From: Cliona cf. orientalis
Lineage: Eukaryota > Porifera > Demospongiae > Clionaida > Clionaidae
Assembly: GCA_963930775.1 (NCBI GenBank)
Contig: OZ005691.1
Location: forward strand, 9,483,000 to 9,546,999
DNA: 64,000 nt
Direction of reading: 5' to 3'
Shown here: positions 24,770 to 61,533 of the stretch, in pieces
Layout: each line of letters opens with the position of its first letter
How positions within the stretch are numbered: position 1 is the first letter of the stretch
Position numbers and translations under genes: made by a program
The notes under the pieces: generated by a model
What the model was told of the DNA's origin: nothing
The model's input: the letters and a program-made list of their open reading frames with translations, nothing else
The model's database searches: none

Positions 24770-26590
24770 GTGAGTTTGCTACTCATTGCAACTAGTACAT
24801 GCATGCGTACCAATAAGGCCATACCTATATTCAATAATATTATTATGTTGTGCGGGCCCGACCGACTCTGATTTTCTGCTCCAAGGATTAAAAATGATAA
24901 TTAGTGTTTACATAATATTTCATCATGCTCAGGCATGTGAGTGACAACATGTGCTCAGCAGGCCAGCGAAAATGTCTGCTAGCTTCACTTGTCTGAAGTA
25001 TTGTAAAAAGGGGTGATTAGCAATCAATCTAGTTGAATGTCACGTGCAACTCGGAAGACTCTTTTGGATAAGTGAAAGGTTATAATTTCTGACTTTCATT
25101 GAAATCACTGGTCACACGACTAACTATCATTTTTTTTTCTTAAACCGACCTATATACTGACCTGACTTGCAAGCCATTTCCACCCGCGCAACAGAAGATC
25201 AAATAATATTATAGGTATAATAATTGTTCTCCATAAATAATATCCCATATACAGTGAATTTTGGATTCTCTTTTAATGTTGATCATGTAATGATCTCTCC
25301 CTCCACTGGCTCCACTGCCACTACTGCTGGGGAGAGAGACTACTCACTGAACTGCTCAGCAACTCTCTTTAATCCCAATCATCTACCCTCTGGTGTACCT
25401 TCACCAAACTTTCAGTGGTCATTTGGTGGCAGTACCTCACTTCCCTCTGGTGTAACTGCTATGCCAACTGTTATGAGCAGCAGCAACTCCACTGGCGAGA
25501 CCTACACCAGTACTCTGCAGTTTTCTCCACTGAGTCAGTCTCATGCAGGAATGTACACATGTCGACTTGGGGCTGGAAGACTGGTGAACAGTGTTATGGT
25601 TACTGTGAATGATAAGTATTCTGTAGAGGATTTGAACATGTTAGTTGATAATCCCCACAGTGACGACTGAGGATGGTTCTAAATGATCTGTAAGCTTATT
25701 CAGTAACGATAATCTACAAGATTTAAGTACACATACAGAAGCATAGATAAAAGAGTATTTTTTGTAGTTTGAAGCCATTCAAACTCAAATTTTCAAGTTC
25801 TTTCATGCATACAGAAGCATAGCTATAATTAGCCCTCCAAGTTCCAATAATTATTACCTTTGTATTGATTAATAATAGGAATTCCACCAACTCAAAGTCG
25901 AGGAAATGCAAGTAAGGAGTTCAGTAGTAGTATATAGTATACCTGCATACTTGAGTTATTACCTGTAAGAGCCAATCAAAGCATAATAATTCCATTATTA
26001 TTATAATATTATAATATATTATAGAAGTCATCATAGTTACTGTAACAACCCCCTCATACTATTAGTTACTGCAGTGGGACAAAGTAGAATAATGTATACA
26101 GAGTGCACAAAGGCAGTATGTCATTGCATGAATGAATATTATCATCACACAGTTTAATACACATACATAATCATAATAACATTATTGCTCCATTTGTGTA
26201 GGATGCTACAGTGGAAGTGACATAGCCATTGCTGTGGTGGCATCCACTCTGATTGATTGCCTGCTAGTAGCTCCAGTCATCATTGCTGCCCTGGTATTCT
26301 GCTGGAGAAATCAAAGGTACCGTATGTGTTTGTAGCTACCATCCTTTTCAGAATCTAATAGATTAATTTTGTTATTGAAGCCATTACATAATGAAAGTAT
26401 GATAATTATTAATTGTCATAGAAAGCTATCACAATACAAGAGTACTAGGATGGTTGTGTATGAAGATCCAGACAAAGTAGCTGCCACCACCACCCGAGGA
26501 GAGTTGAAGCTGACTAAATGTCCTGCCTATGTGACCACTACTGCCAGCTCTCCTGAAGCTCAGCTCCAGAGTGGGTACTATGAGCTGTGA
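24770..26590 (+). pseudogene. Ig-domain receptor, copy 1 (5' exons missing)
   Basis: Homologous to the gene at 59.2 kb from that gene's intron 2 onward; the signal peptide and first Ig exon are absent. Remaining exons: 25255-25614 (Ig domain: LNCSATL, FQWSFGG, MYTCRLG), 25879-25911, 26202-26316 (membrane helix, AIAVVASTLIDCLLVAPVII region, then FCWRNQR) and 26422-26590 (cytoplasmic tail ending SGYYEL). The donor after the Ig exon is changed from CGTAAG to GATAAG, so splicing there should fail and the frame would read to DNPHSDD and stop. The transmembrane and tail exons are open, unlike in copy 2. Without a start exon this is probably dead, unless an unseen upstream exon is used. Confidence 0.75.
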
Positions 26591-26870: not shown

Positions 26871-27048
26871 TATATATAATATACTACAAGTATATAATAT
26901 TATGTTGATAATGGGGCTAATACGCATGAGCTAAAATTAATTTTTATTATTATAATTATTAGCATGGACAATAATATTATCATCTCCAATGTCTCCATGA
27001 CAAGGCCTCAGCCTGGGCCAAACTGCTGGCTCATGTACTCAACATTGT

Positions 27049-27061
27049 CACTGTCAAAAAA
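27049..27061 (+). repeat. Left terminal inverted repeat of the CACTA element
   Basis: CACTGTCAAAAAA; preceded by TGT. Confidence 0.9.
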
Positions 27062-27432
27062 ATGGAATTTCCTATGTTATAGTGCAAAGGAAATATGCAG
27101 GAAATTTTAACTCTAATATTTCCTACCAATTTCATGGACTTGAGCATATCAGCTTTCCTGCTGTATTTCCTAACTCATAGGAAATGTAACATGAAATGCA
27201 TGTTTACTTCGTTTGTGCGCATGAGCTTTCCTTTAGCAATTGTAATTGACAGGAAATGTCATAAGTTAGGCTATGTTTCCATCATCATTAAATTTAGGTA
27301 AAATTTAGTGATATAATGACAATCCGTATTCATACAGCTTTCCTTAAGTCTGACACAAGAACTTTAAGTGCATCATGCAAACACCATGAATCAAGTACAT
27401 TTCCTTATCATCAAAGTTATAGGAAATTTCAC
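27062..27432. promoter_or_regulatory. Left subterminal motif cluster
   Basis: About a dozen occurrences of TTTCCT or its reverse AGGAAA in both orientations (for example ATTTCCTATG, AAGGAAATAT, CAGGAAATTT, CTTTCCTGCT). In plant CACTA elements such subterminal repeats bind the element-encoded TnpA-type protein; the same role here is inferred. Confidence 0.6.
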
Positions 27433-27611
27433 ACTATAACATATTATATGCCACATCCATATTAAACACACTGCCATATTATTATATTATATCAAAACTA
27501 ATGCAGGGAATAAAAACGTGCATGGGCATGAGTGCAAAGGTACACACTTTAGAAAGCCTGACATGAACCATGTGCAGCAGCTGGTCAAAAACTATAACTA
27601 CTATTAAACGT

Positions 27612-29380
27612 GATAGCACACCCTCACCCCCTTGCGAGATGCTTGTTCCACATCCCCAGGCAACGAAACTCAGAAGTAGGGATAAGTACATGATATCGAA
27701 CTTCCTGAACGGGTTTGAGGACCGACGGTTGGGGTATGTACATATTAGCTTAATAAAGCTTCAAACAATCACATAGCCGAGACACATGATAGCACACCCT
27801 CACCCCCTTGCGAGATGCTTGTTCCACATCCCCAGCCAACAAAACTCAGAAGTAGGGATAAGTACATGATATCGAACTTCCTGAACGGGTTTGAGGACCA
27901 ACGGTTGGGGTATGTACATATTAGCTTAATAAAGCTTCAAACAATCACATAGCCGAGACACATGATAGCACACCCTCACCCCCTTGCGAGATGCTTATTC
28001 CACATCCCCAGCCAACGAAACTCAGAAGTAGGGATGAGTACATGATATCGAACTTCCTGAACGGGTTTGAGGACCGACGGTTGGGATATGTACATATTAG
28101 CTTAATAAAGGTATTCAAACAATCGCATAGCCGATACACATGATAGCACACCCTCACCCCCTTGCGAGATGCTTATCCACATCTCCAGCCAACGAAACTC
28201 AGAAGTAGGGATGAGTACATGATATCGAACTTCCTGAACGGGTTTGAGGACCGACGGTTGGGATATGTACATATTAGCTTAATAAAGGTATTCAAACAAT
28301 CACATAGCCGATACACATGATAGCACACCCTCACCCCCTTGCGAGATGCTTATTCCACATCCCCAGCCAACGAAACTCAGAAGTAGGGATGAGTACATGA
28401 TATCGAACTTCCTGAACGGGTTTGAGGACCGACGGTTGGGATATGTACATATTAGCTTAATAAAGGTATTCAAACAATCACATAGCCGATACACATGATA
28501 GCACACCCTCACCCCCTTGCGAGATGCTTATCCACATCTCCAGCCAACGAAACTCAGAAGTAGGGATGAGTACATGATATCGAACTTCCTGAACGGGTTT
28601 GAGGACCGACGGTTGGGATATGTACATATTAGCTTAATAAAGGTATTCAAACAATCACATAGCCGATACACATGATAGCACACCCTCACCCCCTTGCGAG
28701 ATGCTTATTCCACATCCCCAGCCAACGAAACTCAGAAGTAGGGATGAGTACATGATATCGAACTTCCTGAACGGGTTTGAGGACCGACGGTTGGGATATG
28801 TACATATTAGCTTAATAAAGGTATTCAAACAATCACATAGCCGATACACATGATAGCACACCCTCACCCCCTTGCGAGATGCTTATTCCACATCCCCAGC
28901 CAACGAAACTCAGAAGTAGGGATGAGTACATGATATCGAACTTCCTGAACGGGTTTGAGGGCCGACGGTTGGGGTATGTACATATTAACTTAATAAAGCT
29001 TCAAACAATCACATAGCCGATACACATGATAGCACACCCTCACCCCCTTGCGAGATGCTTATTCCACATCCCCAGCCAACGAAACTCAGAAGTAGGGATG
29101 AGTACATGATATCGAACTTCCTGAACGGGTTTGAGGGCCGACGGTTGGGGTATGTACATATTAACTTAATAAAGCTTCAAACAATCACATAGCCGATACA
29201 CATGATAGCACACCCTCACCCCCTTGCGAGATGCTTATTCCACATCCCCATCCAACGAAACTCAAAAGTAGGGATGAGTACATGATATCGAACTTCCAGA
29301 ACGAGTTTGACGACCGATGGTTGGGGTATGTACATATTAGCTTAATATAGGTATTCAAACAATCACATAGCTGATACACA
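27612..29380. repeat. Ten-copy satellite, 176-178 bp units, inside the transposon
   Basis: Units begin at 27612, 27788, 27964, 28142, 28319, 28497, 28674, 28852, 29028 and 29204 (phrase GATAGCACACCCTCACCCCC). In the centre, units alternate between two types (TTATTCCACATCCCC and TTATCCACATCTCC), making a 355-bp higher-order repeat. Every unit has the conserved phrase GAACTTCCTGAACGGGTTTG. It lies just past the 3' end of the transposase gene. Open frames in it are by-products of the period being near a multiple of three. Confidence 0.9.
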
Positions 29381-29536
29381 TGCATCGAACTCTCCAAAGT
29401 ACGGATTGCACATGTACATGTATGAACTATTATCAGATTCTGTTGTTCGTTAGATTTCTGTTCACATTAATTCTTATATCACTAAGGTTTGCATTTATTG
29501 ATATTAATTCGTTGGAGAGACATAATGACATACAAT

Positions 29537-32500
29537 TCATACACTAGATGGAAATTGAATGTTCTGCACAGGACAAAGTAACAATACAGACTGTTCCTCA
29601 TATTTAATATCTCTATAAGCACATTCACCAAGAATATACTGAATAGGAATAAACCTAAACATGTTAGATTGAAAGAGATCTTTCCACCATATTTCTAAAG
29701 GTTTACCAAAGGCATCAAAAGCTGTATGATTTTTAAGCCATGACACACAAAGTAAAATATGTTCATATACTTGATCATGGTACGTTACACAATGTTTCAG
29801 AAAAAAATGAACAAAAACTGGTGCTGCTTTTAAAAGTGAAGGATTGTTTTGATGAACAATGACTATCGAACATTCACCAGACAGACCATGGCACAATTGA
29901 GATCTGTACTTTGTACCACAGAATTCAAGCTTAGAATATTTACGATATGTTGAGTGAATTATCATGTCTGAAGCTGTGAAGTTAGGATAAAGGAAAGAGT
30001 ACAATGACTGTAGTTCAGAAATGCAAGTTTGATCAAAGGCAGAAAGAATATATGAAGGTGGTAGTACAACACTAGTTGGCTGTGTCCAGTCAGTTATTTC
30101 TTGCAAACATACATTGTTGTGATGCAGTGGTTGTAACGTAGCTCTTAAAGAACCTTGAACAACGGGATCAATACACTGTAGTAAGGCACTGAAGTCTGAA
30201 CGATGCTCATGTGGTAAGTATGTTGTAGTTATAGTAAACTCGCGTATAAACCTCTGCATGCATTGCACTTCAAGTGAACAGCTGTTGGTTGGAAAACTTT
30301 CAAAGATTCCATTATAGCGTTCGAAAGAAAAAAGCCAAAAACCGTAAATGGATCCATAATCCAAAATGCACTCCTTCAGATGACAATGCATGTGCATGTT
30401 AGGCGAGATAATCGCTGTTCCATACATACGTTCTACCCGTTTACAGAACTGTAGCAACAAGGCATCAGCTAACTGAATGTCAGATAGAGATAGTTGCATC
30501 TGATTTAGGAGTCGAGATGCTAAAACAAAGTGCCTCCAACACTCAAAATCCTCAGGTGATAGGATATCGTGTAATGCAAACAGAGAATAGATATTTGTCC
30601 AATTCTTGAATTGGTCAGCTGTGAAGCTAGAAAAAGAGCTGGCAATCTTCGATGGTATTCTCCCAAGCTTAGCAGGAACATGTACAGAATCAACACAACC
30701 CTGGATTATATCAAATTGCTTTGTGTTAATCAAATTTTGCTCGATCCAAACTTTCTTTAGGATACGCTTTGCTGTACCAAGGTAGAAATTGTGCATGGGG
30801 TCTATTATAGTCATTCTAATTGGGTCAAAGTAAGGCAATTTTAGCAATATAGAATAGCGACAACCCAGTTCTGACTCCTTTCTTTCACGATGAGTTTTGA
30901 TAGCACATTTACGTATCAATTCCACGTCACTACGGTGCTTACTATTTGATCGAGAAGGCCATTGAGATCTATCAAAACCAGAATAGTCCCTTTTCTCCCC
31001 AAAACCGCCTGGAAAAACTTTTAAGCACCTTGTGCAAGCCAATTTGGCATTGTGTGAAAGAAATCCTGAGACTTTCCTGCTGGCAGGCATATCGCATGCA
31101 ACGCACAGAAGGGCACATTTAATAATTTTAGGGGTTGAAAATGAATACACCTTTAAGGGAACACCATCAAGAAATTCAAGAAGCTCATCAACCAAAGGGG
31201 ATAAAAAAGAATTTATGCTAATTTGTGGTTCACTGGGACCCGGTATCAACCCAACAAGTATCATGTTTTCCTGTCTGAAGCGCAATTCGCGTGGTAGGTT
31301 CATAACCGTAAGGTAAATCGCACCGATCTTGTACTCAAGGTGTTTATATGCCTTAAACCAGTCCACATTCATTGTTAGTCCAAAGGTTAATGGTTCACGA
31401 AGGAATGGCTTTCCATTGTAATCTTGAAACTCATGCCATATTTTGCCATCATAAACATCTGAAAGCATATTGGAATCTGGTCGATTTCTCCACTTTTCAC
31501 AATCCAAATAAAAATTAGGCCGGTCTAGAAGAAGTTGCAAAGATTGACGCAAGGGGCGATAACAATAGGTTCTAATAGGATGTAGCAACTGTGTTCCACT
31601 ACGAGTTTGCACTGCCTTTAGCAGTTGAGAACCACATGACTTGCATTTTTTACCCTTTTTTGCACTTCCACAGGTTTCAATGCAGTTATTATACTTGTAT
31701 ACTTCACTACATTCAGGACAAGTGACATAGCGAATAAAACTACCTTCCTGAATATTTAGGAGTTGACGCATACGATAAAGAGTTCCTGGAAATGAGTTAA
31801 CAACGGGTGAAATCTCAGGATAAAATCGGCATAGTACAGAGAAAAAAGTAGAAAGAAGCTTTAGGAGGAATTCTATCGCTGAGTCTGGTATGTAATGTTT
31901 TTTTTGCAAAAGTGCAAGTAGATGGATGAGCCAAAGTACGAGACTGTGTATATTAGAACCTTGTGGTGAGTCTGTAGCTGACGATGTATCCTCATCAATG
32001 AAACACCCGAGTTCATCATCAGAGATAGATTCAAGTACTTCAATTTCATCACCTATAGAAAAAGATAGGTGATGAGCATGACCCAACCCTACAAAATTAA
32101 ATTTTTGTGCTAATGGTAATATTAGGATCAACTAAATTGGACATGGGTGGGTCAAACGTCAGGGGTTTAATTGTGATGCAATAAACCATTATAGATGTGG
32201 CTTTAAGCGTATGTATAACATTTTTATGTACCATAGGCTGCTTTTCAAAAACAATGGGTGAGCTTTTTGTATGCATGTATGTGGCATTACACAATAGTAA
32301 TATCACACACCTGTGTATCAAGCCCCCCCCCTCCCCAAATAGCCACTGGCACTGTCATACCTTCAAAATGATTGTGACCCTCTTCAGTTTGAGATCCAGC
32401 ATTGTTCACTGCAGGATCAATATCATTACCTGAACAAAAATAAGAAAAAGACAGCCTATTAAACGATACCTAACCACTCACAAAAGGGTACTAAGAGATT

Positions 32501-32834
32501 AGATCATGATTTATCATACTAATGACTTACAGTGCGGCTCTTCAGTCACTAAGTCCATATCCGGAGCGAAATCAAAATCAATAAGAGGAGGTTCTTCCTT
32601 TTCAGATTCACGGGTCACATTCATTTCTATAGGCTCCTGATCCGCGAGGAAGTCTACTTCATCAAAAGCTTCATCATCACCTGCGGCTCGATACTGGGTA
32701 GTCCATTTTTTGGCCACATCGTCAAAATAGAGAAACTTATGTCTTCTATACGTTTTCTTCATAAGATAACGCTCACAATGAGGACAAAAGATCGCTCCTC
32801 TTGGCATCTTACTTGCTCGTTCCCTGGGGTCCAT
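29537..32834 (-). CDS. CACTA transposase (Tnp2-like)
   Basis: Three exons (32531-32834, 32361-32429, 29537-32088) join in frame to 974 aa. Start MDPRERASKMPRG is followed by a zinc finger (CPHCERYLMKKTYRRHK), then an acidic linker. The large exon has a zinc ribbon (CPEC..C..C..CKSC, ORF residues about 138-166) and the catalytic core: MNVDWF (D about 257), ENMILVGLIPGPSEP, CVACDMPASRK (D about 347), LACTRC and TIIDPMHNFYLGTAKR (D about 444). These blocks are typical of the Tnp2/Transposase_21 superfamily. The acidic residues are my candidates for the DDD/E site, not proven. No in-frame stop is present, so the protein may be active. It is divergently arranged with the accessory gene, starts about 245 bp apart. 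Confidence 0.85.
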
Positions 32835-32939
32835 TTTGTGATCCTGAAGTCTCAATCCTGCGCATGGTATATTACTTAATATTAAAGGGACTCCCTCGCA
32901 ACGATAACTGCGCTGCGCGCGCATTCATGTACTACCGTT

Positions 32940-32996
32940 CCCGCGCGCGGGCTCCTGTGTCCCGCGCGCGGGCCGGGAGAGGAGCCCGCGCGCGGG
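32940..32996. promoter_or_regulatory. GC-rich palindrome cluster between the two transposon genes
   Basis: The 12-bp palindrome CCCGCGCGCGGG occurs three times (32940, 32961, 32985). The first and third, with their neighbouring GCTCC and GGAGC, form a larger hairpin. It stands out in an AT-rich element and lies in the short gap between divergent start codons. A binding site for an element protein or a methylation-sensitive control region, as in the GC-rich leader of maize Spm, is inferred. Confidence 0.6.
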
Positions 32997-33079
32997 ACAG
33001 CAATTAATGAGTCGAGGCCTCAGTTGCAGTTTAAGTTCGTGAAGCTAACAGGTGACATAGCTACCCAAGGATTGAGACG

Positions 33080-36000
33080 ATGGCTAGGAGAGCTAAGCCT
33101 AGAAAGCTGGAGATCATGATGAAACAAGATAGTATATCGAACAATAGCTCAGACTCTGAAGCCGATTCAGAAGCCGAAACCACACGTGACTCACTACCAA
33201 AGAAAAAGCGCGCTATTTGTAGCGGTGCTTCTGCTGAAAGCAACGGTGTCGCTGATGATTCTCAACCAGGTCCTATTCTTGAGCGACCGAAAACCCGACG
33301 AAGCAAGAGAGGCCATGATCTCGACGACGTGCTAAGTGAGGAGTCAGAAACGGAGGACCTCGATGCAGCTAAGCTGTTCACCCTCTTGTATACCATTTGT
33401 GATAATGTCAAGAAGAACACTAGATGCCTAAAACAGCTTCAACTGGCTCAGGCTACTCAGCAATCGAGGTGTGTATAAATTAAATTTTTTATGGTTGACC
33501 TTTAATGCACCTATCAATGTATTGCCCCAGGTACCACCCCACGGGCAGGGGTGGGGGATTTGACCTATATGAAATCAATTGCCTCTCCCCTGGGGCGAAT
33601 GCTAGGATCAAATGCCCCCCTTAGGACTATATATTTCCCCCTACTACCCATAAATATTGATCAAATTCCCCTGATCTGGGGCACGTTTTATGGTCAAATG
33701 CGATCAAATCCCCACCTATTGCCAGTGGGGGGGTAGGTGGGGCAATACATTGATAGGTGCATAATATTGATTTTGAAGCCAGTGCATTATACACATTTGG
33801 AGGGATTGGTCGTCTAACGTAATACTCCCTTGGATCATTTTATACAATAATACAATAATAGGTTAGACTTCAGAATAGGTACTACGTATGTCACACTACC
33901 CTGAATTCCAGTGTTCAAATACAGACAAACTGCCCTCGAAACTAACCCTGGAGACTAACCCTTGAAACTAACCCTGCCATACAGACCCTGGAGACTAACC
34001 CTGACAAACAATCTTACCCGAAACCCAACCCCTGACCCCTCGCGTACATGGCCTTGTCCGAGGTAGTACCTATTCTGAAGTCTAACCCAATAATATTTTT
34101 AAGATTGAAAAAAGGTACCATAACATTATAGTGGGAAACTTGGGCAAGGTTTGACGAATTTGGTATAGATCACCAATGGTATATACTACTATTTTAGTAG
34201 ATGGCACTATCACGTGTGTATATTATTTAGTATCATCACATGAACCCCTCTTCCCTAACAGTGTATCATCTAGCTCTGACTCTTCGACGCCTAAGCGTCC
34301 AAAGATTTCCCCTGTTGTTCGTGTAAGTTTTATGACTATGCTAAATGGGTATTATGTTATTACTATATATTGTGCTTGTGTAGCAAGAGGTGAGAAATAC
34401 ATATCATGCTCTGCTTGATGAAGATGATGAGAATTTTCCTGGTTGGGACATTGGCCCTGGGTAAGTTGTGTGTACATAGCTATCTAAGTATTGATTTCAT
34501 AATAATTAGATTCCTAAGCCACAGTTTTTATCTTGTTGGGCAATATGAGGTATCCTATGGCAAAAATAATTCTAGTGTGCAATAGTGTACCCCTACTAGG
34601 GGATCTGGGTCAAGTCCCAAGTCCCCCCCCCCCCCCCCCCCAGAAAAATTTATAAGGCCACTCCAAATTAATTCATTGTTTCTCATCCCCCCTGAGCCAA
34701 AAACTAATGTGGGCAAGCGGCTGGAAATGGTCGTTTATTCACAAGTTTGATAGGAAATGGTGGTCAAAACCATAAGTTCAGCAGTCCAAAAAATTGAGGT
34801 GGCATACTTTTGTATTGTACTGGTGCTGATGGAAATACATGCGAGCGGAAATCAAGAGGGGATGAGAAACAACTAACTGATTTGGAGTGGCCTAACCTAC
34901 AAGACTTTCAGATGGCTTATAAGACCACATATGCAAACATAATACTTGGCAGTTTTTTGCAGGGGAGGGATCCTGGGGTGCCCCTTGCATTAATCCTTAC
35001 TAAGTTTGCCAATGGTAAAATAGTGGGTATTAGTAATTAACCCTCACCGCAAAGCGTAGGCGGAGGGTTACTGCAATCGTTTGGCGATTTTTGTCTGTCC
35101 GTCCATCCGTTGCAACCCTCTTTTCTAAATGGTAAGAGTCGTCATAGAGAAAGTACACGCTATAGGTATACCTGGCATAAAGGAAGAGTGGTCACAGTTA
35201 AGGAGTAGTAGTGTGCAGCTGTTGCAAATTGCCAGTCTGTGTTTACATGGCTCCCACCTCAATTACATTACTGATTGCCATTCTGTGCTTTGCTGATCAG
35301 TTGTTAATGCAGTGACAGTGTAAACAGCAGAAGTGGCTCTCAGGTGCATAATTCAGTTAAAGTATGTCACAGAGGGTTTCAGTTTATATAGTGGCATAGC
35401 CAGGTCAACTCTGAATATATAGAACAGTACCAGAACCCTGTTCAGGTGCAGGGTATGTAGTTCAATACTCCTGATATTGAACATGCACAGTAGTATACAC
35501 AGTGAGCCATGCTATAATATGCATGCGTGTAGTGGTGAGGGTTCTGCACTCCTGTGCGTTCATTTCTGGTGCAGTTTTAAGTAACAATCTGTTTATTAAT
35601 TTTTAGCAAAACTATCAACAGTCGAAGCAATCAGGTAGTGATGACCAAGCTTGTGAAAGAGGTCAGGGGACTGAATCCATCAATGGATGCATCTGACATA
35701 CGTAGTAAGTTTAGCATGACTGTAGTATAATAATATTATAGTAGGCATGTGATTAGGGAATTTTTTAATTCTACATGGGTGATTTCTGATTTAGATGGCA
35801 TGTAACGACACAAATGCGATCCCGACCCGTTCGCGATACGCCGGTACGTACGCCGCCGCGATCGCTGGACGATGTGGATGGGAGGGGCTGGAAGGTCAGG
35901 GGATGGGTTGCGAATGGTTAGCAGGGTTAGTGTGGGAGGGGCTGGAAGGTCTGGAGATGGGTTGCGAATGGTTAGCAGGGTTAGTCTCTAGGGTTTGCGT

Positions 36001-36913
36001 ATACGTGGACTGGAGAGGCTGGGTTGTGAATGGTTAGCAGGGTTAATGTGGGAGGGGCTGGATTGTGTAGGGTTTGTCTACAAAATAGTTGAAATAACGG
36101 CTGCCAGCAGCGATAACAGTGGTGGCCGAGTGCTGGGGCTCTTATGGGACGGAATGGAGCGGGTTCAAATCTTGCTGTACACTTTGACTTTTTTTCCTGT
36201 TGAATTTTTCTAAGTGTTGATATATAGATCGCATTTGCGTTAGATCGCATTTGCATCGTAACATGGCATCACCTGAGTTGAATGAGTGGTACAGATGAAT
36301 GGTTTCTATTTGGGGTGGTATCTTGTAGAATCAACCCTTGACACATGACATTGTGCCGTATGTAATATTATCACTATAGCTGCATTAATTTTATGCAAGG
36401 TGCTATTATGTACTATAGGTGCTGCCCACCGCTTTTATAGGAGTAAATGTGAAGAAGAGTCTAGAATCCGCCGTGGATTGGCAGAATCTCAGAAACAGGT
36501 TAAGAGGCGACGTGAAAGGATAGCCAGGGTAAGTTATCATAAAATGTATAATAATATTATGTGGATGTGTGTTCATAACAATAATTTTATACTCACAGAA
36601 GAGGAAGGAGCGTGCTTCAGCAGTGGCGGAGAATCCTAAATTGACCGAGGACCAAAAGAAGAAGTGGCTTAGCGTCATAACACACGATTTCATGTCTTCT
36701 GAGGAAAGTGGTAGTGATGACGAGAATATAGTGCATCCCCTCGTATGGAGGAGCAAGTATGTCAGTACAATGTTTGAGAAGATAGATGCCTATGTTGAAC
36801 GTAAGAAAACTCCACAAGCTCGTCGCCAAATGAAAAAACGTGTTAATGGATCCAATTCCTTGCGCCCAGAGCCATTAGATTGTCCCGGGTGGGCAAAGGA
36901 AACAACAGAGTGA
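33080..36913 (+). CDS. CACTA accessory protein (second transposon gene)
   Basis: Six exons (33080-33468, 34262-34322, 34384-34460, 35607-35704, 36419-36528, 36599-36913) give exactly 349 codons and a stop. The N-terminus is basic then acidic (MARRAKPRKLEIMMKQ, SSDSEADSEAE, KKKR). A central part reads LLDEDDENFPGWDIG and DIRSAAHRFYRSKCEEESRI. The C-terminus has MSSEESGSDDENIVHPLVWR and KTPQARRQMKKRVNG. I recall the last two phrases in predicted proteins of cnidarian and fish genomes, always unnamed. Inside a CACTA element the parallel is TnpA, the DNA-binding partner, but no known DNA-binding fold is visible. It is transcribed away from the transposase. Introns 3 and 4 carry other insertions. 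Confidence 0.75.
35039..35566. repeat. Insertion with AACCCTCACCGC / GGTGAGGGTT ends
   Basis: Left AACCCTCACCGCAAAGCG, right GTAGTGGTGAGGGTTCTGCA. Relatives: part at 52245-52390 (reversed) and 55354-55650. It lies in intron 3 of the accessory gene, nested in the CACTA element. Confidence 0.6.
35791..36268. repeat. Nested element with internal minisatellite
   Basis: Ends GATGGCATGTAACGAC and GTAACATGGCATC, each with an adjoining AAATGCGAT/ATCGCATTT, form imperfect inverted arms of about 28 bp. The centre (35871-36090) holds four degenerate units with GGAGGGGCTGGA and GGTTGCGAATGGTTAGCAGG. It is in intron 4 of the accessory gene. Confidence 0.6.
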
Positions 36914-36927
36914 CTTGTTAACGGTTT

Positions 36928-37205
36928 GAACCAATTGCAACACCATGCAAGCATTTACCTTCCATTACTATAACTGCGGGTTGATTGTTACTATATATTA
37001 TTATGATCCATTATTAAATTTTATTTGTTGAACCAATTGCAACACCAAGCATTTACCTCCCATTACTATAACTCAAGGCTAAGTCATAATGATTATTATT
37101 ATTGTGATCCATTATTTATTTGTTGAACCAATTGCAACACCAAGCATTTACCTCCCATTACTATAACTCAAGGCTAAGTCATAATGATTATTATTATTTT
37201 ATGAC
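36928..37205. repeat. Three-copy tandem repeat, about 100-bp units
   Basis: Starts of GAACCAATTGCAACACC at 36928, 37030 and 37125. Units two and three are nearly identical (CAAGCATTTACCTCCCATTA). It begins just after the accessory-gene stop, so it would be in the 3' UTR. Confidence 0.8.
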
Positions 37206-37554
37206 TTTTATTGGCTGTGATTAATCCTTATGATCATGATCATTTTCTGAATTGTGACAATATTTTATTATTACCATTGCCAAAAAATATATGTGATTTC
37301 CTGAATGTTGACTGGGTTGGTGCATGTCACTTGTAGTTGCCTTTCCTATTCTGGTGAAATGTGAAATGTGATGTGGCTGTTATGTAGGAATACAATGATG
37401 GTTCATGTCGCCTGTGATGGGCTTTCCTGTATGTGTTTAAGAATGGAAATGTGGAGTGATGAGTGGCAATACTGCATGCATACCATATGATCTGTAAGCT
37501 AGTGATCAGGTAAAATTTTTAACTCAGTGCATGTGGTATGTCTTGCATCAGAAA

Positions 37555-37710
37555 TTTGGTGTGATGGTACAGGAAATTGCGCCCTGTACTATACCACCCT
37601 GTAGCAGGAAATGCATAGGATAGTTACTAATTTCCTGTGCTTGCACACACAAATGACATAAGGAATTTCATACACAATTCAGCCACCAATCCTGTAAAAG
37701 GAAACACAGC
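37555..37710. promoter_or_regulatory. Right subterminal motif cluster
   Basis: AGGAAATTGC, AGGAAATGCA, AATTTCCTGT, AGGAATTTCA and AGGAAACAC repeat the left-end motif within 160 bp of the right terminus. Confidence 0.55.
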
Positions 37711-37723
37711 TTTTTTGACAGTG
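37711..37723 (-). repeat. Right terminal inverted repeat of the CACTA element
   Basis: TTTTTTGACAGTG, followed by TGT. Confidence 0.9.
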
Positions 37724-37739
37724 TGTATCGTAGCAGGAG

Positions 37740-59215: not shown

Positions 59216-61533
59216 ATGGTGTTATTTCGTAGTAGACTTGGACGTATCTTATCCGCGGGACTGCTGTTGCTGGTGACTGCATGTGTTTCGATCATCAGAG
59301 GACAGCAAGGTACCGGAGGTAGCTATCTATGATACGCGGCTGTGTTCAGCATGCACTAGTATTAAACCACAGACTACAGTGTGCCATGAAGACCCTCAAC
59401 ACGCTATACTGCAGCTGATACTTTAATAATAATTATTATGCTGTATGCATGAATTTGGAACTTTCATGCCATGTAGTCGGTGTCTCTCTGGTTCTTAATG
59501 GAGAGACCATACCCAGTGACAGCTTTGTGGATCTTAATGATATTCGGATCTTTGGAAGTGGCAGTCCATCAAATGACAATTCGGATGGAGCATTGCTGTG
59601 TATAACTGATCTAATAGGCTGCTGTGCTTCACCTGCTCATGGTGATTGGTACTTTCCTAATGAGGGGAGAGTAGGAGAGAACGGTCACGGGTTTGTAGTA
59701 AACAGAGGTGCAAGTGACCAACAGAATAGTACTAGTGGCTCAGTTCGTCTGTTTCGAAGATTCAGTTATGCACCAGAAAGAGGTCGATTCCGCTGTGAGC
59801 TACCCAGTGCTGCTGATCCCAATACTGACCTGACCCTCTATGTTAACATTAGTGAGTTTGTTACTCATTGCAACTATATAGTACATGCATGCGTACCAAT
59901 AAGGCCATACCTATATTCGATATTATGTTGCGCGGGCCCGACTGACTCTGATTTTAGTATATATTATTATTATTTCATCATGCTCAGGTGAGTGACAACG
60001 TGCTCAGCCCAGCGAAAATTTCTGCTAGCTTCACTAGTTGTCTGATATTTAATATAATATTATTATTGTAAAAAGGGGTGACTAGCAATCGATCTAGTCG
60101 AATGTCAGGTGCAACTCGGAAGACTCTTTGGATAAGTGAAAGGTTTCTGACTTTCATTGAAACCTTGCACTGGTCACATGACTAACTATCATTTTTGTTT
60201 TCTTAAACCGACCTACTGACCTGACTTGCAAGCCATTTCCACCCGCGCAAAAGAAGATCGAAATTAATATAGGTACGGCCTAATATTGTTCTCCATAAAT
60301 AATATCCCATGTACAGTGAATTTTGGGTTCTCTTTTAATGTCGATCATGTGACCATCTCTCCCTCCATTGGCTGCACTGCCACTACTGCTGGGCAGAGAG
60401 ACTACTCACTGAACTGCTCAGTAACTCTCTTTGATCCCCATCATCTACCTTCTGGTGTACCTTCACCAAACTTTCAGTGGTTGTTTGATGGCCTGAGTAC
60501 CTCACTTCCCTCTGGTGTGACTGCTATGCCAACTGTTATAAGCAGCAGCAACTCCACTAGCGAGACCTACACCAGTACTCTGCAGTTTTCTCCATTGAGT
60601 CAGTCTCATGCAGGAATGTACACATGTCGATTTGGGCCTGGAAGACTGGTGAACAGTGTTGTGATTACTGTGAATCGTAAGTTTGCTGTAGAGGATTCGA
60701 ACATGTTAGTTGATAATCCCCTCAGTGACGACTGAGGATGGTTCTAAATGGAAATCATCACCAATGTTACCTGTGAGCTTATTCAGTATCGATAATCTAC
60801 AATTAAGTACGCATACAGAAGCATGGATAGAAGAGTATTTTTTGCAGTTTGAAGCCATTCAAACTCAAAATTAACAGTTACTGTATTATTTCCTTTCATG
60901 CATACAGAAGCATAGGTAATTAGCCCTCCAAGTTGATTTATAACAATAATTATTACCTTTGTATTAGGAATTCCACCAACTCAAAGTTGTGGAAATGCAA
61001 GTAAGAGTTCAGTATATTATAGTAGTAGTAGATCTATATACCTGCATACTTGAGTTATTACCTGAAAGAGCCATGCAATCAAAGTGTTATAATTTAATAC
61101 ACATGCATAATAATTATGCATTATTGCTCCAAATTTGTGTAGGATGCTAGCTACAGTGGAAGTGACATAGCCATTGCTGTGGTGGTGTCCACTCTGATTG
61201 ATTGCCTTCTAGTAGCTCCAGTCATCATTGCTGCCCTGGTATTCTGCTGGAGAAATCAAAGGTACCGTATGTGTTTGTAGCTACCATCCTTTTCATAATC
61301 TAATAGATTTGTTATTGAAGCCATTACATAATGAAAGTATGATAATATTGATTATCATAGAAAGCTGTCACAATACAAGAATACTAGGATGGTTGTGTAT
61401 GAAGATCCAGACAGAGTAGCTGCCACCACCACCCGAGGAGAATTGAAGCTGACTGAATGTCCTGCCTATGTGACCACTACTGCCAGCTCTAGCTCCTGAA
61501 GTTCAGCTCCAGAGTGGGAACTATGAGCTGTGA
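59216..61533 (+). CDS. Ig-domain receptor, copy 2 (now probably secreted)
   Basis: Exons 59216-59309 (signal peptide, ILSAGLLLLVTACVSII), 59477-59851 (first Ig-like module: ALLCITDLIGCC, DWYFPNEG, RFRCELP), 60317-60676 (second Ig: LNCSVTL, FQWLFDG, MYTCRFG), 60968-61000 (33-bp micro-exon, IPPTQSCGNA), then 61143 onward. Compared with copy 1, exon 5 has an extra 4 bp (GATGCTAGCTACAG against GATGCTACAG), giving a stop at 61148-61150 before the membrane helix. The predicted product is a 289-aa soluble two-Ig protein. The tail exon (from about 61361) also has an extra 4 bp (CTCTAGCTCC against CTCTCC), ending early at 61499 instead of the ancestral 61533. So the former membrane and cytoplasmic part is decaying. 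It could still be a functional secreted form. Ligand unknown. Confidence 0.75.

Follow-up and report, generated by a model that had tools for sequence, protein, structure and literature searches.

A complete, recently transposed and probably autonomous CACTA-like EnSpm transposon with two divergent genes in Cliona cf. orientalis

The window analysed here is a 64,000-nt stretch of Cliona cf. orientalis (contig OZ005691.1), and coordinates are positions within it unless a contig of the host assembly is named. Very probably, positions 27049-37723 (10,675 bp) are a complete, recently transposed and still autonomous CACTA-like transposon, in which gene 1 encodes the transposase and gene 2 most likely its DNA-binding partner. 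The element fits the EnSpm superfamily: it carried a Transposase_21 domain, CAC..GTG termini (CACTG..CAGTG), a 3-bp target-site duplication (TSD), clusters of subterminal motifs and a conserved D-D-E triad with C(2)C and H(3-4)H motifs, and so supported the CACTA/EnSpm identity proposed in an earlier note made from the letters alone. The 3-bp TSD was seen as TGT in the window, as GTT with a matching empty site at a second copy on contig C1, and in nine related elements.

Ends, copies and recent movement

The 13-bp CACTG terminal inverted repeats (TIRs), the flanking TGT and the subterminal motifs described in the earlier note were all present, with 19 AGGAAA motifs on either strand in the two outer 450-bp regions, where the rest of the window would predict 0.55. 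The features of the two ends were as follows.

27046-27048, no strand: left TSD, TGT, equal to the right copy
27049-27061, plus strand: left TIR, 13 bp, CACTGTCAAAAAA, the same in the second complete copy
27067-27071, plus strand: inner box of the left end, positions 19-23 (ATTTC inward, GAAAT toward the end), from the cross-family comparison of ends
27049-27498, plus strand: left subterminal region with 12 AGGAAA/TTTCCT motifs, by motif count
37274-37723, plus strand: right subterminal region with 7 AGGAAA/TTTCCT motifs, by motif count
37701-37705, plus strand: inner box of the right end, GAAAC, from the cross-family comparison of ends
37711-37723, plus strand: right TIR, 13 bp, TTTTTTGACAGTG, the same in the second complete copy
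37724-37726, no strand: right TSD, TGT, equal to the left copy

We queried the host assembly (G000; 216.8 Mb, 149 contigs) with the outermost 252 bp on the left and 254 bp on the right, which matched at least four and at least two places, respectively (lower bounds). A second complete copy of 10,066 bp was found on the minus strand at G000:C1:9997595-10007660, with different flanks, a GTT/GTT duplication and identical ends. Copies with other boundaries, which would have spoken against the proposed unit, did not turn up. The two copies differed by three substitutions, of which two fell in a tandem array and the third in a gene-2 intron, and by a 1-bp indel and the length of a C-run, both intronic; the C1 copy also had two array units fewer and lacked a 259-bp stretch of the window copy. 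None of these differences fell in any modelled exon. The remaining two left-end matches were old copies, roughly 90-95% identical, with coding pieces that contained stops and were split by insertions.

When the C1 copy was removed and its flanks joined over one GTT, they matched a continuous paralogous segment (C1:10130209-10130475; 95% with gaps). The alignment crossed the junction with a single GTT and matched at 254 of 259 aligned bases, its two gaps lying clear of the junction; this fixes both ends of the element and its 3-bp duplication. The same search for the window copy returned one partial repeat besides the two flanks of that copy itself, with no pre-insertion site among them, so the empty site looked for was found for one of the two copies. 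Because the TSDs differ and an empty site exists, origin of the two copies by segmental duplication is so far contradicted. The window family has therefore been mobile very recently, in agreement with the earlier suggestion of recent activity.

Whether both copies moved once and are now silenced, or short of a needed activity, has to be weighed against continued autonomy. We regard such a recent fossil as possible and on balance doubtful: only two complete copies were found, by end searches whose counts are lower bounds, and CpG depletion across the window (observed/expected 0.57) suggests a DNA-methylating host, whereas the modelled exons are identical between the copies, the catalytic residues are intact and three other groups of related elements have copies at least 99% identical (99.6-99.8% in the I/J/K group, 99.4-99.8% in the A group and 99.2% between L022 and L023). 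Copies J and K sit at different TSDs (ACA and ATG); therefore that family likewise moved recently. High identity alone may be compatible with segmental duplication too in the A group and in L022/L023.

Two head-to-head genes and their relatives

Both genes were open through spliced models with GT..AG introns, as the earlier note had proposed in describing two uninterrupted spliced genes. The gene 1 model, on the minus strand, joins exons 32834-32531, 32429-32361 and 32088-29537 into a reading frame of 974 aa, and that of gene 2, on the plus strand, joins six exons (33080-36913) into one of 349 aa.

29537-32088, minus strand: gene 1 exon 3, transposase with Transposase_21 domain (domain search, alignment, predicted model)
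29576-30076, minus strand: C-terminal tail of gene 1 (residues 669-835), possibly BAH-like in the predicted model
30164-31954, minus strand: RAG1-like core of gene 1, residues 43-639, in the predicted model
32361-32429, minus strand: gene 1 exon 2 (open model, GT..AG)
32531-32834, minus strand: gene 1 exon 1, from the ATG at 32834, with an in-frame ATG at 32924 as alternative start (open model)
32835-33079, no strand: interval between the gene starts, a candidate promoter for both genes (from composition)
33080-33468, plus strand: gene 2 exon 1 (open model)
34262-34322, plus strand: gene 2 exon 2 (open model)
34384-34460, plus strand: gene 2 exon 3 (open model; conserved in relatives)
35607-35704, plus strand: gene 2 exon 4 (open model; conserved in relatives)
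36419-36528, plus strand: gene 2 exon 5 (open model; conserved in relatives)
36599-36913, plus strand: gene 2 exon 6 with the stop codon and the conserved C-terminal domain (open model, genome matches, alignment, predicted fold)

The Transposase_21 (tnp2) match in gene 1 had an E-value of 1.1e-15 (57.9 bits; cut-off 28.6), and 22 of the 23 members of set A1 matched the same domain at E<=10 (best 2.2e-20). Numbering residues from the codon at 32080, the catalytic D240, D330 and E587 were intact and conserved in an alignment of family transposases, with the C(2)C (C349/C352) and H(3-4)H (H563/H567) motifs between the second D and the E. The predicted model of the core had a RAG1-type transposase fold, a feature on which the earlier note is silent. 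Five within-family pairs of gene-1 copies gave dN/dS values of 0.31, 0.57, 0.53, 0.88 and 0.47 (small counts), a sixth had no synonymous and two nonsynonymous changes, and synonymous sites were saturated in three between-family pairs. Two related loci, L016 and L018, have open transposase frames in which the catalytic E is replaced by K.

The spliced gene-2 protein had zero Pfam matches at E<=10, and hence none to kelch, PHD or Transposase_24. Its exon-6 domain, aligned over 17 of the 25 genome matches described below, was predicted with a pLDDT of 84.7 and a pTM of 0.68, and SSEE and PLPWRS-like motifs were conserved among its relatives. The two genes start 245 bp from each other and run in opposite directions (155 bp with the alternative gene-1 start at 32924). 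The stretch between them is 56% GC with a CpG observed/expected ratio of 1.27, against 0.57 for the window, includes CCCGCGCGCGGG palindromes at 32939-32997, and is likely a promoter shared by both genes.

This head-to-head layout, which the earlier note had not described, recurred across the genome. Gene-2 exon 6 had 25 matches (40 candidates, all 40 scored), 17 of them 2.1-5.9 kb from a gene-1 match and all 17 head to head, with 0.19 expected by chance within 15 kb; we grouped these 17 into ten families (window and C1 copy; L; A and B; D; C, E and P; H; G; M; F and N; I, J and K). Searches of the 25 loci by tblastn (E<=0.1), which reached 1.5 kb upstream, recovered exon 5 in 19, exon 4 in 15 (both counts including the two copies of the window element) and exon 3 in 10. 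Exon 1 had a partial match in an old copy. The remaining eight exon-6 matches had no gene-1 match within 15 kb (G000:C3:9327801, C1:26766381, C1:25970858, C18:4784451, C1:23533139, C13:2765094, C1:18805197 and C1:28326772) and would be relics, or possibly host genes derived from gene 2.

Among 16 gene-1/gene-2 locus pairs, nine (C, E, F, G, J, K, M, N and P) had end pairs with equal 3-bp TSDs and 11-13 of 14 bases alike, spanning 5.9-10.7 kb, where 20 shuffles per pair gave a best of 9-11. Six had no end pair above their own shuffles, and the window pair was out of reach in that search. We then compared 12 ends, both ends of one copy from each of six families, leaving out eight ends of E, K, N and P (near-repeats; N1 shifted by one base). 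C-GTG and the T at -10 were invariant, and A at -4 occurred in 11 of 12. An inner box, which had played no part in selecting the ends, showed AAA at -22 to -20 in all 12, preceded by G in ten and followed by T in ten. Between-family identity was 0.97 over the last five bases and 0.88 at -23 to -19, against 0.47 for the spacer and 0.27 for the sequence beyond the box. Within 350 bp of the ends, AGGAAA or ATTTCC was among the two leading motifs in F, G, M and N, AAATGT was top in C, E and P, and AAATAT was top in J, K and M.

A partner for the transposase and relation to known systems

We propose that gene 1, a RAG1-shaped D-D-E transposase, would recognise the CACTG ends with the help of the inner GAAAT box, excise the element and, on reinsertion at a new site, duplicate 3 bp of the target. 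Gene 2 would be transcribed away from it, likely from the shared CpG-rich promoter, and its product, a long-term partner, is most likely the DNA-binding accessory protein that loads on the AGGAAA clusters, as TNPA does for TNPD in maize, either to bring the ends together or to regulate that promoter. Most dissection of two-gene CACTA systems has been in plants. For maize, TNPA is described as binding subterminal motifs, with TNPA and TNPD both required (PMC2613891, PMC1636069).

Alternatively, gene 2 may be a passenger with no role in cutting, such as a silencing suppressor or a host gene that an ancestral element picked up once. This would fit a protein with no Pfam match and a domain with no fold match, and the eight relatives far from any gene-1 match. 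We nevertheless judge it unlikely, as gene 2 was retained in all ten families, always head to head, across transposases only 33-54% identical (eight families compared), and kept its conserved motifs. Gene-1 and gene-2 distances also co-varied: since family H is a fragment, we limited the correlation to the columns it covers (r 0.65, p 0.002, eight families), a restriction adopted after seeing the result for all columns given below, and leaving H out gave r 0.82, p 0.006 (seven families).

Several points weigh against an autonomous element with a partner protein. In its first form, over all columns of the eight families, the correlation was not significant (r 0.45, p 0.078). The predicted exon-6 domain had no convincing fold match, and the gene models follow splice-site consensus, joined by homology for gene-2 exons 3-6; exons 1 and 2 of each gene follow that consensus, with the partial match of gene-2 exon 1 in an old copy as added support. 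The 252-254-bp end queries found only two complete copies of the window family and zero short derivatives (lower-bound counts). The shuffle control is lenient, since for C and F the runner-up end pairs, at 10 and 11 of 14, likewise lay above the best shuffled score of 9; end sequences common to copies and families are the better support. In the null for motif clustering, 1% of 300 random pairs of windows reached 1.8e-17 and the best 2.7e-26, against 7e-19 for the window family, the null being broad probably because of simple repeats. The whole case, moreover, is built from genome sequence and predicted models.

Among known systems, maize En/Spm and plant CACTA elements (TNPD plus TNPA) share with this element, as described, Transposase_21, 13-bp CAC inverted ends, a 3-bp TSD, subterminal motif clusters and a second protein (PMC1636069, PMC2613891, PMC8195511). 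Their ends, however, read CACTA rather than CACTG, so we rejected a literal plant-type CACTA element, and in Spm tnpA and tnpD are alternatively spliced from one transcription unit, whereas here the second gene stands apart, head to head with the first and with introns of its own. Animal TRC elements, SmTRC1 among them, likewise carry Transposase_21, but their ends are given as beginning with CCC, with a 2-bp TSD (PMC1636069). An animal TRC element was therefore rejected too. That 2006 study of animal elements reports no second protein common to them (PMC1636069); in contrast, the second protein here recurs in ten families of one genome. EnSpm elements of the CMCT clade are described with the same CAC..GTG termini, 3-bp TSD and C(2)C and H(3-4)H motifs, and the EnSpm families of that report carry a TET/JBP gene in fungi, where here there is another second gene (PMC12730594).

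RAG1 and Transib nick 5' of CAC and leave a hairpin on the flank. Their dependence on CAC is documented (PMC8289069), and RAG-like, ProtoRAG and Transib elements share with this one a RAG1-like fold (here predicted), a first CAC triplet and an A-rich stretch near positions 8-10 (PMC8289069, PMC7204232); CAC with an A-run around positions 8-13 is also as described for the TIRs of protostome RAG-like elements (PMC7204232). The ends here have an inner conserved block too, whose placement compares with that of TR5 or the nonamer. That the element is itself a RAG-like (RAG1L-RAG2L) or Transib transposon, and not EnSpm, is nonetheless highly improbable: its TSD is 3 bp and not 5 bp, its domain match is Transposase_21, gene 2 has no kelch or PHD match, the genes are divergent where RAG1L-RAG2L are described as convergent, and the inner block differs in sequence and spacing (PMC8289069, PMC7204232).

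We thus favour an EnSpm element with a partner protein. A bolder extension, which we offer tentatively, is that an animal lineage of EnSpm elements is a two-component RAG-like system, with a RAG1-shaped transposase bearing a chromatin-reading BAH tail, an obligate, co-evolving and divergent accessory protein, bipartite CACTG-spacer-GAAAT ends and several families mobile today in a single animal genome. If true, this system would represent an independent counterpart to both RAG1/RAG2 and TNPD/TNPA. Ten diverged families with a head-to-head partner gene provide intact animal material for asking what a second protein does, the window family and J/K offer near-identical copies at different target duplications, and the RAG1-like core, together with ends of CAC plus a second block, is a comparison point for end recognition by RAG, Transib and CACTA.

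Nested repeats, host and neighbourhood

Two internal features distinguish the window copy from the C1 copy.

27605-29382, plus strand: tandem array of about ten 176-178-bp units (sequence; two units fewer in the C1 copy)
33506-33761, plus strand: nested miniature inverted-repeat transposable element (MITE), 256 bp, with TAA duplications, in gene 2 intron 1 (C1 copy without it)

All 31 matches of one array unit fell within four copies of the window element (5 candidates scored). The 259-bp stretch missing from the C1 copy (33503-33761) consists of the MITE and one TAA duplication, and scoring of 210 candidates placed the MITE family at 40 sites, this one among them and most of the 40 close to full length. 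The MITE probably inserted into the window copy after the two copies separated, although the difference may also reflect loss from the C1 copy. Four more inverted-repeat blocks lie in gene-2 introns of both copies (33849-34099, 34655-34893, 35039-35543 and 35794-36270) and look like older nested elements tolerated by splicing.

The earlier note had placed the host in an early animal lineage. Wnt family matches (10, at three loci on C4, C8 and C19) identify it as an animal, and "early" is consistent with them; the sponge Amphimedon has three Wnt genes. Elsewhere in the assembly, two BAH-domain stretches about 0.7 kb apart (G000:C9:9853592-9854893) might have the layout expected of a DNMT1 gene. 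The element is flanked, at 25224-25667 and 60268-60732, by two similar reading frames with immunoglobulin domains, which lie about 35 kb from each other.
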